Of a stretch of DNA of 46,890 nucleotides, positions 890 through 39,824 are shown one piece after another; position 1 is the first letter of the stretch; every line of letters starts with the position of its first letter. Below the pieces are notes generated by a model. The model was not told the DNA's origin, ran no database searches, and worked only from the letters and a program-made list of their open reading frames with translations. The position numbers and the translations under genes are program-made. Source of the DNA: Gammaproteobacteria bacterium (GTDB lineage Bacteria; Pseudomonadota; Gammaproteobacteria; Enterobacterales; Kangiellaceae); NCBI GenBank assembly GCA_013373375.1, contig JABXHY010000059.1, positions 1 to 46,890 of the forward strand, in the 5' to 3' direction.

Positions 890-1000
890 AGTACTATCAA
901 ACATATCAATCCGACCTCCACCGAATTTCTCGTTTTGTATTTTTCTGCTCCGCTCGCTCAAAAAATTAATTTTGTTCCTGCGGCATGGCAGGGTGATAAA
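890..1000 (+). other. Degenerate attC-like spacer
   Basis: A few bases after the stop codon lies TATCAAACATATCAATCCGA, one base away from the TAACAA start common in attC sites. It is followed by about 90 bp of non-coding sequence of the usual cassette-spacer size. No clear GTTRRRY end is present before the next gene. The assignment rests on position and on the 5' motif only. Confidence 0.22.
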
Positions 1001-1007
1001 AGATTAA

Positions 1008-1352
1008 ATGGAAACTAATACGTATCACGAAATATGTGCTAAACCTTCATCTTTTTCTAGGCGAGAACTGGAACAGACACTCATGGCTTTGGAAAAGATT
1101 GAATCGAAAAAATTTGGCTTAGTAAGTGATTTTTTAAAATCAAAGCCCGTCGAAAAGCCCGCCTTACATCGAGGTGGCAAACAAACAGATTATTTTATCG
1201 TTCAAATTTCTACTAAAGAGGCAGAGGAAATAGTTGAAGAGTTAGGTACACTAGAAGCGCAAGCGGTAACCCTTGAAGGACATTCAACGCCCGACGCTTT
1301 GCACTACGCTTCTCTCCTAGACCGTTGGTTTAATTATGTTGAGTCTCTGTAG
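1008..1352 (+). CDS. Hypothetical protein, probable gene-cassette product
   Basis: Encodes 114 residues, soluble, with several helical charged stretches (RRELEQTLMALEKIE; KEAEEIVEELGTLEAQAV) and no signal or membrane segment. I do not recognise a domain. The ATG lies at the end of a spacer resembling a decayed attC site, and another attC-like motif (TAATCAGGCCATTAAATT, from about 1368) follows shortly after the stop. Function unknown. Confidence 0.6.
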   Translation: METNTYHEICAKPSSFSRRELEQTLMALEKIESKKFGLVSDFLKSKPVEKPALHRGGKQTDYFIVQISTKEAEEIVEELGTLEAQAVTLEGHSTPDALHYASLLDRWFNYVESL

Positions 1353-1760
1353 GTGACAAATGCAATATAATCAGGCCATTAAATTCGACGTTCGTGCCTC
1401 ATGCGGCTTTTGGCAACGTCAATCAGAAAATGAAACTATGGAGATTATCTTTAAAGTTATGGTTTTCCTATATTGCTCTTTCTGGGCAAAGGAAAAGTGT
1501 GTTTAAACGACCTTTATCCAAATGGGTAAACCAACTAAAAATGCTTTTTTCGGAGGCTTTAATGGGAAGTTTAGAAACGCTTGTTTAGTAACTTATACGA
1601 GGTTAGGTGCGAAATTGATAAGTGTTAAAGGCATCAAAATGTTGAACGGCCACAAATTTGACTGAATTATTTGCCGCCTTCCGAGTTTGCTGGTAGGGCG
1701 GCAAAATGATAAAACTTGTAATAATCCAGAGTAAAGTTTAGTTCCAGTCGTTATTTTATT
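1353..1760 (+). other. Gene-poor stretch with a third attC-like start and possible gene remnant
   Basis: This 408-bp stretch starts with TAATCAGGCCATTAAATT shortly after the preceding stop, which resembles an attC 5' end (TAACAAGGCC-like) with small changes. Beyond it an open frame of 64 codons from a GTG at 1394 has no Shine-Dalgarno and no recognisable protein, and I treat it as a remnant or chance. GCCGCC (about 1674-1679) and GGCGGC (about 1697-1702) form an inverted repeat (TTTGCCGCC...GGCGGCAAA), a possible terminator for either strand. Confidence 0.3.
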
Positions 1761-2402
1761 TCAAAGGGTTTCTTTCGCACTTTTATATTCATCATTGTCC
1801 CAAAGTTCAAAATAAAGCGCCTCGAAAAAGTACTGAATGTTGCTTGCGCTCGAGATTGCGTTGTCTGGGTCATTTCTTGCCAAGCTTAGTGCTTCGTGTA
1901 ACTCGTAAACTTCATCCTGCTTGAGGAAATAATTTGCAGACTGCGTGATATGAAAGTGAGACATCTCGTGAATTAAAACGCCTAGTTTACTTTGAAAACC
2001 TTCTTCTTCTAACTCAAAGAACTCGGTTGTTAGATATATAAAGAAATGATCATTGTCTGGATAAATATAGCCTATTACTACTCCATCCATGTAATTTTCA
2101 TACTCCGATGTTACGGTACACTGAAAAGATGGTAGTGCGAGGAAATCTTTAAGACTTGTGTAAAGATCAACCGCTTTTGAAACTTTATCACTACTATTTA
2201 TGCCTAACAGATCCATCATGCCAAAACTCACGCTGTCCTCACGATTTTTGTCTTTCAAAACTTTCAATGTTTTTTCTAAGGCATTTTGAGCTAAGGCTCG
2301 TAAATTCTCTACTTTTTCTTTTTTCTCGCCAAAACAGGGCACAGTAACCGCATTTAGATTTAAACTCATTAATAAGAGAGTGAGTGTCAAATATCTATTC
2401 AT
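1761..2402 (-). CDS. Secreted M35 (aspzincin)-like zinc metallopeptidase
   Basis: Encodes 213 residues with a signal peptide (about residues 1-18, MNRYLTLTLLLMSLNLNA). The zinc motif HEMSH is at 145-149, preceded by GVLI. About 14 residues later comes KQDEVY (161-166), placed where aspzincins have the third ligand Asp in GTxDxxY. Then NDPDNAISSASNIQYFFE (177-194) matches the NPDKAxxxAxxxxYFxE signature of M35 lysine-specific endopeptidases. Cys23 and Cys95 could form a disulfide. The start ATG overlaps the stop of the upstream gene (TAATG), so the two are probably translationally coupled. The family call is from motifs; substrate unknown. The glycine of GTxDxxY is not conserved. Confidence 0.6.
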   Translation of the reverse strand: MNRYLTLTLLLMSLNLNAVTVPCFGEKKEKVENLRALAQNALEKTLKVLKDKNREDSVSFGMMDLLGINSSDKVSKAVDLYTSLKDFLALPSFQCTVTSEYENYMDGVVIGYIYPDNDHFFIYLTTEFFELEEEGFQSKLGVLIHEMSHFHITQSANYFLKQDEVYELHEALSLARNDPDNAISSASNIQYFFEALYFELWDNDEYKSAKETL

Positions 2403-4240
2403 TAGTATACCCTTACCATGTAGCGACAGAAGGAAGAACTTGGATTTATTGTTTGATTTACGCCGCTGTTTTTATATTTAATACGAGGTTTATGAATACT
2501 AACATAGTCTGCTACTCGAGCTTCAGGCACGCTGCCTATATCAGTAGCAGGAATTTTAAAGTTTTCGGTCTCGATTTTTTCTTTAGCGTCGACGATAGCA
2601 GCCGAGAAATGACTGGCCATTAAATAGTTATTTGTAGTAACTTCTTCAGTTGAGTTTGATACTTGGTCAATATGATAAGTAACGTCAACTCTCTTTAAGG
2701 TGACAGCAAATACGTCTAATGATGGAGGAGCATATTTGCCATCAAACACAAGCTCAAGTTTCGTCCCACTTTCAATTACGCCAGTTTTATTTCTGTCAGA
2801 TGTTCCTAACAGTGTGCGACCTGACATGTCTGGAATAATTCCACCATTAGATTTTGGCGCCCATGAGCTGTCGGGCCATTTGGCGTTATCACTATTCATC
2901 CAAGCGAATCCGACCGGTGGCTCTGCTTTTGTTGACATGGAACACAAAACCGTTCCAAGAGGGACGTCATAAAGAACCCTGGTAACAGACGTATCTGGCT
3001 TATGATCCGTCAAAGACTTATGAATATCGATGGTGTCTGCGTGGACAAAGGAGTTCAACTCGGCTACTGCGAGTTTAATTGAAAGTTGTAAATTCTCCTC
3101 TATAGTACTGGAGATATCATCGAATGAAGCGTAATCTATTTCTACTGGAATGTAAGTGTCCATTTCTTTGGTTTTTTTTAGCTTTACGTTGTGTTGCTTT
3201 TCAAAGCTTGCTGCCGGTGTTTTGCTGGCTGTGATTTTAATTTTGGTTTTGGTTTCATCGGTATATTCAATTTTGTTTTTCTCGATCAATGGTTTGAGAT
3301 AATTTGCGAATGCCTTAACGAGAGGGTCGTTTTTGTCTGAAATATCGAAGTTCTTAGGGACTTGTCGAGGTAACTTATTAAAAAACGCCGAGCCGAGACT
3401 AGGAAGTTTGCTCACTAGCTTCAGGTCATTGGTATTAATCATGGCACTCATAAAATTTGAAACTTTAGATTCAATTTTTCTCTGAGTCTCTCCAAAAATA
3501 TATTGTTTTCCGTCTACTGTAGTATTTTTGACTAAGGCATCGAGCTCTTTTTTAAGACTATCAAACTTTTCCGAGTCGAATTGCGCCATGACAACAGCAG
3601 AGGTTTGCAAGACTCCCCTGTATTGGTAGCTAATGGAAGCGCGCAGCCTCTCTTTATCAAAAAGCATTTTAATTTTTTCATACTTGGAGGGTATCAAAGT
3701 TTCCGACATGATCGAAACCGTACTTTCTTTATCACCCGAATTAATCTCATTTTTTGTTTCTGCAGAGAAAACAAGTTCGCTCTCGTTATGCTTGTCAAAG
3801 AAGTCTATTTTTACTCTTTGTGTGGGCCAAAACCTCAAATCGATGTCTGGCTTTGGTTCGTCACTAAGTTTTAATTCTCTTTGAATGTGCTCTAGAGCTA
3901 GTTTGCGTTGTTGGGCAGTATGGAGTACTAGTTTGAACTCCAATATTAAACCACCATTCTTTCCTTTGTGTTCAGCCCAGGGATAATCTATCGAATCTTT
4001 GTCTGTTTCAAATTGAAAAATAGGCTGCACAAAATATACATTGCTCTTTTTCTCCTGACCTTCACCAGTACCTTTTGCTGCTAGGCGAAATGGAATTTGA
4101 CGGTGGGGGTAGATATTTTGGATATTAAGCGCTCGAACATTGGATTCTAAGATAGGTAAGTAGTCACCCACAGGTGTTTGCGCTGATGATTTAAAAACTC
4201 CGAAAATCAAAATATATATTAAGAAAATATTTTTCATCAC
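2402..4240 (-). CDS. Secreted protein with phage-tail-collar-like C-terminal region
   Basis: Encodes 612 residues with a signal peptide (residues 1-20, cleavage after SSA). The central part is rich in charged helices and has no family I can name. From about residue 425 the sequence follows the tail-collar pattern: a DVPLGTVLC start, a PPVGFAWMN segment, then IPDMSGRTLLGTSD, which resembles PDLRGRFLLGxS in collar-domain proteins, and a late YMVRVY end. A good Shine-Dalgarno (GAGGAC) lies about 10 bases before the ATG. It is the first gene of a two-gene unit with the M35-like peptidase, sharing one base. It may be a surface or secreted structural partner, or a substrate, of that peptidase; this is inference. 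Confidence 0.5.
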   Translation of the reverse strand: MMKNIFLIYILIFGVFKSSAQTPVGDYLPILESNVRALNIQNIYPHRQIPFRLAAKGTGEGQEKKSNVYFVQPIFQFETDKDSIDYPWAEHKGKNGGLILEFKLVLHTAQQRKLALEHIQRELKLSDEPKPDIDLRFWPTQRVKIDFFDKHNESELVFSAETKNEINSGDKESTVSIMSETLIPSKYEKIKMLFDKERLRASISYQYRGVLQTSAVVMAQFDSEKFDSLKKELDALVKNTTVDGKQYIFGETQRKIESKVSNFMSAMINTNDLKLVSKLPSLGSAFFNKLPRQVPKNFDISDKNDPLVKAFANYLKPLIEKNKIEYTDETKTKIKITASKTPAASFEKQHNVKLKKTKEMDTYIPVEIDYASFDDISSTIEENLQLSIKLAVAELNSFVHADTIDIHKSLTDHKPDTSVTRVLYDVPLGTVLCSMSTKAEPPVGFAWMNSDNAKWPDSSWAPKSNGGIIPDMSGRTLLGTSDRNKTGVIESGTKLELVFDGKYAPPSLDVFAVTLKRVDVTYHIDQVSNSTEEVTTNNYLMASHFSAAIVDAKEKIETENFKIPATDIGSVPEARVADYVSIHKPRIKYKNSGVNQTINPSSSFCRYMVRVY

Positions 4241-25739: not shown

Positions 25740-27134
25740 TTATACGTTGAAATCGTCAAGAAGGATCACATTTAATGGTAAAGGTGAATCACCTGGATTG
25801 GGTCGTGCTGCATCTCTTGCGATTACCGTGTATAAGCCGCCTGCGTCGAGTTGAATATCGTTCAAATCGATAGCGGCGTCGGTGGTTCCGGTCGGTGTAA
25901 CGGTGATGTCATAAGTCCCCTCCGGTAATTGAATAAAACCATCGGTTGTGTTTTTAAACTCAAAGCCACTGATAGCGGGTTCTACTGTGCTGATGTCGGT
26001 ACCAGGAGCTGTTACATAAATATCAACGATACCCGCTGATGGTGAGGCATGTACGATTTGTACTTTAGCGGCGGTAGCAACTCTTCTACGATCGGCATTG
26101 AGCAACAAAGGTTCGATGGTTGCTAACTCATCAACCGCGAGTACGCTGTAAAATTGGCCTTGAGCCAGAGGCACATCTGCATCAATAACCGCTGTGCCAA
26201 TATCAGCGCCAGTGGCAGTTACTTTGAAGTTATAAGTATCGGCAGGCAGCGGAATGAATGAGGTGAACTCGGGATAGGCCAAGTTGCTAATGGCTGGATC
26301 CGCACCGTCGTTTACATAGACATCAACATTTGGCGCATTGGGTGATGCGTGAACGACTCGTACGTCGGCAGTTGCTGCTGAATCCTGGATGATAAACGAA
26401 CCTTCATTAGTCGCGACGAGCAGGTTGATGGGAGCGTCACCCGTCAATGTATTTTCGATGGCTGCGATGGTCAGGTCGAGTCCTGCTGATAAAGCAACGG
26501 TTCCTGAATCGAACACTACTTGCGCTGGGTCTCCTGCAATAGTGACACGAATACGGTAATCACCTGCTGGAACGTCTACCGGTCCAACGCCACCTTTAAA
26601 GTCGATAGTGCCAAGCGCAGCTGACTCCGCGAGGATGGCTGATGGTGCTGTCACATACACATCAACAAGCGGAGCGTTTGGCGCTGCATGCACCACTTGA
26701 GCGCGTAATTGCCCTGTTTCGATAGGGTTGGTTTGTCGGTTTACGACTAACGCTTCAATATTGCTTACGTTGTCGACAGCCAGAACCGTGTACTCAAAAT
26801 CAGCCATCAAACTTAAGCTAACTGGCCCAATGACACTTGGTGTAGAACCATCCGGTAGTAACCCTTGAACTTCTACTTCCAAATCACCAGCGTCAACCTC
26901 GAGACGAGGACTTGCGGAGCCGTAATCGAAACCTTCAAGAAGAGTGGATCCACCTGCCAATACGTTTACTGCAGGTGCATCGGGTGACGCATGAATCACC
27001 TGAACTTTTGCTGTTCCTATTGGACCCGAATTGGAGTTGTTATCGTCATCATCAATTATTCCACAGGCTTGAATTAAGGCCGCGGACAAACCTACCGCAA
27101 GACCTTTGATAAATTTTGGAGTAACATTCAACAT
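25740..27134 (-). CDS. Lipoprotein with four DUF4397 repeats
   Basis: Encodes 464 residues with a lipoprotein signal (LSAALIQA-C24) and an acidic linker (IIDDDDNNSNSG). Four DUF4397 repeats each begin with a VxVxHASPxAPxVDVY-type motif at about residues 43, 143, 256 and 356. The domain is a beta-sandwich of unknown ligand found in exported proteins. It is transcribed toward the sigma/anti-sigma pair, with a weak hairpin between, and is often seen next to such pairs in marine bacteria (my recollection). It may be a target or cell-surface output of the sigma factor. Confidence 0.88.
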   Translation of the reverse strand: MLNVTPKFIKGLAVGLSAALIQACGIIDDDDNNSNSGPIGTAKVQVIHASPDAPAVNVLAGGSTLLEGFDYGSASPRLEVDAGDLEVEVQGLLPDGSTPSVIGPVSLSLMADFEYTVLAVDNVSNIEALVVNRQTNPIETGQLRAQVVHAAPNAPLVDVYVTAPSAILAESAALGTIDFKGGVGPVDVPAGDYRIRVTIAGDPAQVVFDSGTVALSAGLDLTIAAIENTLTGDAPINLLVATNEGSFIIQDSAATADVRVVHASPNAPNVDVYVNDGADPAISNLAYPEFTSFIPLPADTYNFKVTATGADIGTAVIDADVPLAQGQFYSVLAVDELATIEPLLLNADRRRVATAAKVQIVHASPSAGIVDIYVTAPGTDISTVEPAISGFEFKNTTDGFIQLPEGTYDITVTPTGTTDAAIDLNDIQLDAGGLYTVIARDAARPNPGDSPLPLNVILLDDFNV

Positions 27135-39326: not shown

Positions 39327-39344
39327 TGTGAGATATCTCTTACA
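39327..39344. promoter_or_regulatory. GacA/UvrY binding box (upstream activating site), with second half-site
   Basis: TGTGAGATATCTCTTACA matches the GacA consensus TGTAAG-N6-CTTACA at 11 of 12 defined positions. A second TGTGAGATATCT half-site begins 22 bp further at 39349. The box centre is about 190 bp upstream of the predicted sRNA start, the distance known for rsmY/rsmZ and csrB genes. It is also about 60-75 bp from the mannosyltransferase start, so that gene could be affected too. Confidence 0.8.
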
Positions 39345-39491
39345 CAGTTGTGAGATATCTTAACATTCGCTATTGGCAGAAAGTCCTTGGTTAAGAATAA
39401 TGAAAATATAACTCATTGTTTTGTAAGATAAAAATTAAAATTAGCGAACTCGATACTCGATAAGTCGTTAATTTGTTCGTTAATCAGTGTC

Positions 39492-39519
39492 TTGTGCGAA
39501 AACCGGTTTGAATTATACT
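39492..39519 (+). promoter_or_regulatory. Promoter of the CsrB/RsmZ-like sRNA
   Basis: A -10 box TATACT (39514-39519) lies 16 bp after a poor -35 (TTGTGC, 39492-39497). A weak -35 plus an upstream activating box is expected for a GacA-dependent promoter. Transcription would begin near 39526. Confidence 0.65.
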
Positions 39520-39525
39520 TTCTCA

Positions 39526-39721
39526 TGTCGACAGGGAAAAGGAAGCTTGAGTGCAAATCGTCGATACGGAGGGGAGACGGAGTCAACCAAAGGATTGAAT
39601 CACGGAAGTTCAGCGCTTGATGAGTAGGATTTTTAGGGAAGTTTGGAACTAAATGGATTTGGTAAAGGATTGTTAGGAAGAGATAACTCTCGTGGAAAAG
39701 GCAGCTTACGCTGCCTTTTTT
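39526..39721 (+). ncRNA. CsrB/RsmZ-family CsrA-sequestering small RNA
   Basis: About 195 nt without a plausible protein. It contains 14 GGA triplets, at 39535, 39541, 39568, 39573, 39579, 39592, 39604, 39627, 39637, 39645, 39655, 39667, 39676 and 39694, many as AGGA, AGGGA or ACGGA. These are the CsrA/RsmA recognition motifs, present far above chance density. A -10 box precedes it, a GacA box lies about 190 bp upstream and a strong intrinsic terminator ends it. Such RNAs titrate CsrA (RsmA) and shift cells between motile and sessile or secretory states. Its exact 5' end and folding remain unproven. Confidence 0.85.
39696..39721 (+). terminator. Intrinsic terminator of the sRNA
   Basis: GGCAGC (39700-39705) pairs with GCTGCC (39710-39715) around TTAC, with an A-run before and six T after (39716-39721). 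Confidence 0.92.
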
Positions 39722-39824
39722 ATTGCCTCGAATAAAGTTTATGGGCAATTCTCATCGACATCGCTCATCGGCGTAATCAAATTCTCTTGATGACTGTCTT
39801 CTAAAAATGCTTCTTTAAACTACT

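Follow-up and report, generated by a model that had tools for sequence, protein, structure and literature searches.

The window analysed in the present study, a 46,890-nt stretch of DNA, very probably carries on its plus strand (39526-39721) a gene for a Csr/Rsm-type non-coding small RNA, one that would be activated by UvrY together with IHF and would act by sequestering CsrA. The main weight of the case for this gene is carried by comparison with relatives, which probably belong to the family Kangiellaceae. This placement is hinted at by a scan with a QtmA alignment, which gave at least 80 loci, nearly all from other families, and had a Kangiellaceae MAG (L043) among its best matches; a scan with MnmC gave no match. 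An earlier note on this DNA had read the region as a sponge RNA of this type, and its reading is supported by the occurrence of a GGA cluster, a terminator, a promoter and a UvrY/GacA palindrome all within 39327-39721. Such systems are well documented, and the RNAs of this family are new members, predicted from sequence.

The elements themselves, their conservation and spacing, the covariation of a GGA-loop hairpin and the presence of csrA, uvrY, barA and ihfA genes can all be read from the genomes, and transcription, protein binding and CsrA titration are the steps that we infer from them. Phosphorylated UvrY (GacA) would bind the palindrome ~190 bp upstream of the gene, and IHF would bend the intervening DNA so as to bring UvrY to a sigma-70 promoter. 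The resulting ~196-nt transcript would present up to 14 GGA motifs, at least one of them in a conserved hairpin loop, and could thereby sequester several CsrA dimers, releasing the mRNAs under CsrA control.

The predicted gene, its upstream region and its regulators

The predicted RNA (~196 nt), whose 5' end at 39526 was inferred from the -10 box, contains 14 GGA on the plus strand, the first at 39535 and the last at 39694-39696. The density of 14 GGA in ~165 nt given in the earlier note is correct, and is the highest of any 165-nt stretch on the plus strand of the window; the highest count on the minus strand is 6. Dinucleotide shuffles of 39526-39721 averaged 7.7 GGA, with 2 of 2000 reaching 14, and none of 2000 mononucleotide shuffles reached that number. 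Elsewhere in the same genome, the GGA peak was 8 among 14,254 windows; these cover 225,716 bases, the two strands taken together, and come from loci chosen by palindrome or regulator match, which are not a random sample. Dense repeated GGA in an intergenic RNA, one feature of the class, is thus present as 14 GGA in 196 nt. The RNA ends at a strong intrinsic terminator, as previously noted, whose stem-loop (AAAAGGCAGC-TTAC-GCTGCCTTTTTT, 39696-39721, plus strand) appears in the predicted fold and is conserved in all five genus members.

The promoter (39492-39519, plus strand) comprises a -35-like TTGTGC (39492-39497), a 16-nt spacer and a -10 TATACT (39514-39519), the last where the earlier note had placed it. 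The CTTGT and TA-rich -10 columns are kept in an alignment of 13 promoter sequences. A simple promoter and terminator scan of the window listed neither this promoter nor this terminator, and reported a single promoter-like site elsewhere (39373-39401).

Upstream lies the UvrY/GacA palindrome TGTGAGATATCTCTTACA (39327-39344, plus strand), which is kept in relatives and is of the same kind as the E. coli csrB site. It agrees with TGTAAGN6CTTACA at 11 of 12 positions, as had been claimed, and is the only match in the window at one mismatch or fewer; at up to two mismatches there are six matches compared with 1.9 expected. Its centre lies 190 bp from the inferred 5' end, in agreement with the spacing of about 190 bp proposed earlier. 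Two further elements had gone unmentioned in the earlier note: a degenerate second copy of the palindrome, or half-site (TGTGAGATATCTTAACA, 39349-39365, plus strand), which begins four bases after the palindrome and has a presumed function, and an IHF-like site (TAACTCATTGTTT, 39409-39421, plus strand) centred at +79 from the palindrome and differing at one position from the IHF consensus YAANNNNTTGATW.

Across the 4.53-Mb genome the pattern TGTRAGN6CTYACA occurs in two places and its reversed control in none. Relaxing the palindrome to one mismatch or fewer gave 23 places versus 34 for the reversed control, which is no enrichment, and the relaxed palindrome is therefore uninformative by itself. 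Among these 23 places, only that of the window is followed within 600 nt by at least eight GGA per 165 nt (the runner-up has seven), a few of the downstream stretches having ended early at contig or locus ends. The second exact palindrome of this genome (G000:C2:34768) has no GGA cluster downstream. The assembly is 95.8% complete and was searched for Csr genes through palindromes with up to one mismatch; a second Csr RNA may have a weaker palindrome or lie in the missing part of the assembly.

The earlier note expected csrA and gacA/uvrY in the genome, and both were found, together with barA, all above curated cut-offs, so that this further feature of the class (csrA, uvrY/gacA and barA/gacS in one genome) is also present. 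The csrA gene (contig C33 of G000) scores 90 bits against a cut-off of 27 and 111.5 bits against a cut-off of 73, and is flanked, as read by eye, by the end of alaS and a serine tRNA. A LuxR-type regulator directly upstream of uvrC, the latter recognised by eye, is a UvrY/SirA/GacA equivalog (345 bits, cut-off 280). The BarA equivalog (972.6 bits, cut-off 890) and IHF-alpha (175.5 bits, cut-off 120.25) models are each also passed by one of 14 control genomes. Flanking the RNA gene, qtmA matches QTMAN_N (182.8 bits), and mnmC falls slightly below the cut-off of the full-length models and above those of both domain models. Other genes of the window, all on the minus strand, include one for a 213-aa protein with a lysine-specific metallo-endopeptidase (M35) domain (1761-2402), a 612-aa ORF without a Pfam match (2402-4240) whose end overlaps the M35 gene by one base, and one for a 464-aa protein with four DUF4397 stretches (25740-27134).

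Conservation and size range in the family

Searches by DNA similarity and by palindrome, combined with inspection of the loci, recovered comparable GGA clusters from 33 of the 40 family genomes, 32 of them with a visible palindrome. By genus group, the cluster is present in 5/5 genomes of g1, 6/7 of g2, 4/6 of g3, 1/1 of g4, 0/1 of g5 and 17/20 of g6. DNA similarity and exact palindromes recovered no such gene in G004, G010, G012, G015, G019, G028 and G034, and since the search comprised these two approaches only, the seven results are not proof of absence. The weakest of the 33 is G011, where the palindrome has one mismatch and is without an IHF-like site. All four genus mates of the window's genome carry homologues, with mnmC adjoining in all four and qtmA in three, the contig of G039 stopping before both qtmA and the palindrome.

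All eight genes measured in g1 and g2 have 188-190 bp between the palindrome centre and the inferred 5' end, and five g6 genes have 176, 177, 177, 178 and 187 bp; these figures are uncertain by a few bases because the 5' ends were set by eye. In 27 of the 32 genomes an IHF-like site with no more than one mismatch has its centre between +77 and +79 relative to the palindrome, compared with 8 of 1248 when the same three-position test was applied at other offsets; this position was first noticed in 13 of these sequences and counted afterwards. The five genomes in which the site is missing at +77 to +79 are G036, G003, G005, G011 and G013, the last of which has a perfect IHF-like site at +89. As the 17 g6 genomes were located with a query consisting of the RNA plus a few preceding bases, their palindromes and IHF-like sites are independent of the discovery. 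The near-fixed spacing of palindrome, IHF-like site and promoter known from csrB is therefore a property of these sequences. In four g6 loci (L281, L282, L288 and L290; genomes G017, G023, G033 and G035) the palindrome reads TGTGCGAGATCTCGCACA and departs from the pattern at two positions, with the half-sites altered symmetrically and the IHF-like site still at +77.

The RNAs range from 137 to 558 nt among the 14 measured, about fourfold, and contain 6 to 41 GGA in the family. The smallest are both from g6, one of 137 nt with eight GGA and one of 144 nt with six. Because the promoter spacing is kept while RNA length varies fourfold, the promoter is a better search handle than the RNA sequence.

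Several individual loci extend this picture. A putative 558-nt RNA gene with 41 GGA lies on the reverse strand of L025 (G007:C322, indices 475-1033). Its palindrome has the same sequence as that of E. coli csrB, and an IHF-like site follows at +78; the G007 assembly is 82% complete and the 41-GGA array is given as assembled. The reverse strand of L143 (G014:C22, indices 930-3780) holds three Csr-type RNA genes in ~2.9 kb, separated by apparent protein genes, with zero, one and one palindrome mismatches and an IHF-like site at +78 in each. G006, which already carries a long Csr-type copy (L138), has a second, shorter GGA-rich stretch after a palindrome on the reverse strand of L216 (G006:C46), with nine GGA per 140 nt. 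Outside the family but in the same order, L128 (G154) and L129 (G221) have 14 and 12 GGA per 165 nt, respectively, after TGTAAGACATGTCTTACA, the cluster of L128 beginning ~190 bp past the palindrome; neither locus has an Rfam gathering match.

RNA structure and alternative readings

The alignment of the five genus sequences has a mean column identity of 64%, and its consensus fold consists of a 5' stem, a GGA-loop hairpin and the terminator. The 5' stem (39526-39566, plus strand) pairs TGTCGAC (39526-39532) with GTCGATA (39560-39566); all seven pairs are kept in all five sequences, one of them altered on both sides. The hairpin ACTAA-ATGGAT-TTGGT (39648-39663, plus strand) was examined over 17 genes from 15 genomes of four genera, with G011 and the g6 genes left out. 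Its pairing extends to 92.6% of cells, 13 cells are changed on both sides (shuffled mean 5.4, reached in 0/500), and its covariation score is 0.592 (shuffled mean 0.325, 0/500; slid controls ≤0.129). Two of the five measures used, the number of pairs changed on both sides (333/500) and that of further pair types (83/500), do not exceed the shuffles. The rows were gathered by a motif that already required some stem letters, which raises the pairing percentage and does not force the exchange seen in the first pair (10 GC, 6 AU and 1 GU across the 17 genes).

For the window RNA taken alone, folding energy shows no excess over shuffles (z -0.29), and the GGAs are neither significantly exposed (26/100 under a GGA-keeping null) nor significantly placed in hairpin loops (56/300). 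Exposure was significant (≤2/100) in six of 13 relatives (G039, G036, G002, G001, G006 and G007); among the 14 RNAs it was not so in the window, G037, G038 and five g6 RNAs. On the earlier expectation that the GGAs would sit in hairpin loops the evidence is mixed, with no significant signal in the window by itself, significant exposure in the six relatives and one covarying GGA-loop hairpin.

These results bear on two readings in which there would be no RNA gene on the plus strand. It is very improbable that the region is simply purine-rich intergenic DNA with chance GGA, palindrome and terminator matches: the absent fold excess of the window RNA, the silence of Rfam and the blindness of the simple scan to promoter and terminator speak for it, but the arrangement recurs in 33 of 40 family genomes, at near-fixed distances and with a covarying hairpin. 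Still less credible is a minus-strand protein gene, the 111-aa ORF at 39413-39748. Although this frame stays open over 112 codons here and over 99 in G037, the ORF has no Pfam match, the matching runs reach at most 58 codons in G036 and 65 in G038, and it is on the plus strand that the terminator and GGA sites are conserved; moreover, GGA-rich sequence would be expected to have few minus-strand stops. A conserved protein, which the earlier note had named as evidence against an RNA gene, is accordingly not indicated here.

A further reading keeps the CsrA-binding RNA and adds to it. The 13-nt block CAGCGCTTGATGA (39611-39623, plus strand), which contains no GGA, is identical in all five g1 sequences; in their alignment, with its mean column identity of 64%, no longer stretch is invariant except in the terminator. 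It recurs with one change, as CAGCACTTGATGA, in all three G014 genes, the general form being CAGC(G/A)CTTGATGA, and by eye it holds the self-complementary hexamer AGCGCT. A second function, in which the block would pair with mRNAs or join two copies of the RNA by base-pairing, seems rather unlikely on present evidence. Among the matches listed, its complement (up to one mismatch) is commoner than the backwards pattern in six of six genomes, with at least 14 and at least 10 matches versus 4 and 4 backwards in G000; however, the excess occurs on both strands, the backwards control keeps neither codon nor dinucleotide content, and the predicted pairing of the block varies among sequences.

Known relatives and significance for the family

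PrrB/RsmZ of Pseudomonas is a GGA-rich short RNA under GacA control, a description that the window RNA shares in being short and rich in GGA; its match to this family is weak (PrrB_RsmZ, RF00166, 39595-39724), at 15.9 bits and an E-value of 0.3 against a gathering score of 44. The covariance search proposed in the earlier note for CsrB, RsmY and RsmZ returned no family at threshold, in either gathering or permissive mode. Gathering scores were not attained by any Rfam family in the window or across 17 loci, of which 14, the window's own among them, are Csr loci of the family, and CsrB (RF00018, gathering score 71 bits) was matched neither in the window nor in 13 related Csr loci, the best CsrB score among the relatives tested being 22.7 bits (L138). 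The best permissive match, Atu_C8 (23.2 bits, gathering score 50, E-value 0.04), was dropped, its best fit being over the terminator. With all Rfam families below threshold, the label 'CsrB/RsmZ-like' is limited to promoter layout and likely action, for which it holds, and does not extend to Rfam membership.

The closest known layout is that of E. coli csrB, for which one study places the centre of the palindrome (TGTGAGAGATCTCTTACA) at -183/-182 and, 5 bp further on, a half-site that is partly conserved; IHF, with a putative site in between, is required there for optimal UvrY binding and activation (PMC4682653). The window, as read from sequence, has the same order of palindrome, half-site, IHF-like site and promoter as described there, its half-site (39349) following the palindrome after four bases instead of the 5 bp in E. 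coli (PMC4682653). E. coli CsrB has 22 GGA (PMC7652899), compared with 14 in the ~196 nt of the window RNA. Pseudoalteromonas fuliginea has several copies per genome, Pf1, Pf2 and Pf3, with 25, 21 and 9 GGA, respectively, which were studied by experiment (PMC11882849). Like the RNA predicted in the window, these are marine gammaproteobacterial and combine GGA motifs with a promoter and a terminator, and the likeness of the window RNA to them is one of description (PMC11882849). Among the papers listed for Kangiella, Aliikangiella, Pleionea and Kangiellaceae, no Csr RNA is described for the family, and a term search of a Kangiella comparative-genomics paper (PMC6000758) found none of 'sRNA', 'small RNA', 'carbon storage' and 'two-component'.

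A broader interpretation, which we consider speculative and improbable as a whole, is that the family has a Csr lineage invisible to Rfam, with sponge capacity acting as an evolving dial and, in two genera, a second function for the CAGCRCUUGAUGA block. If the dial reading were true, capacity would have been set by the number of GGA per RNA (6 to 41) and of genes in a genome (one to three), all behind a single rigid promoter, and the second function, if true, would add base-pairing or RNA-RNA contact through that block in the two genera. The Rfam Csr models missed all 14 family loci tested. The predicted genes extend the BarA-UvrY-Csr switch to this family of marine bacteria, which would offer a natural series for the scaling of sponge capacity with the number of CsrA sites.
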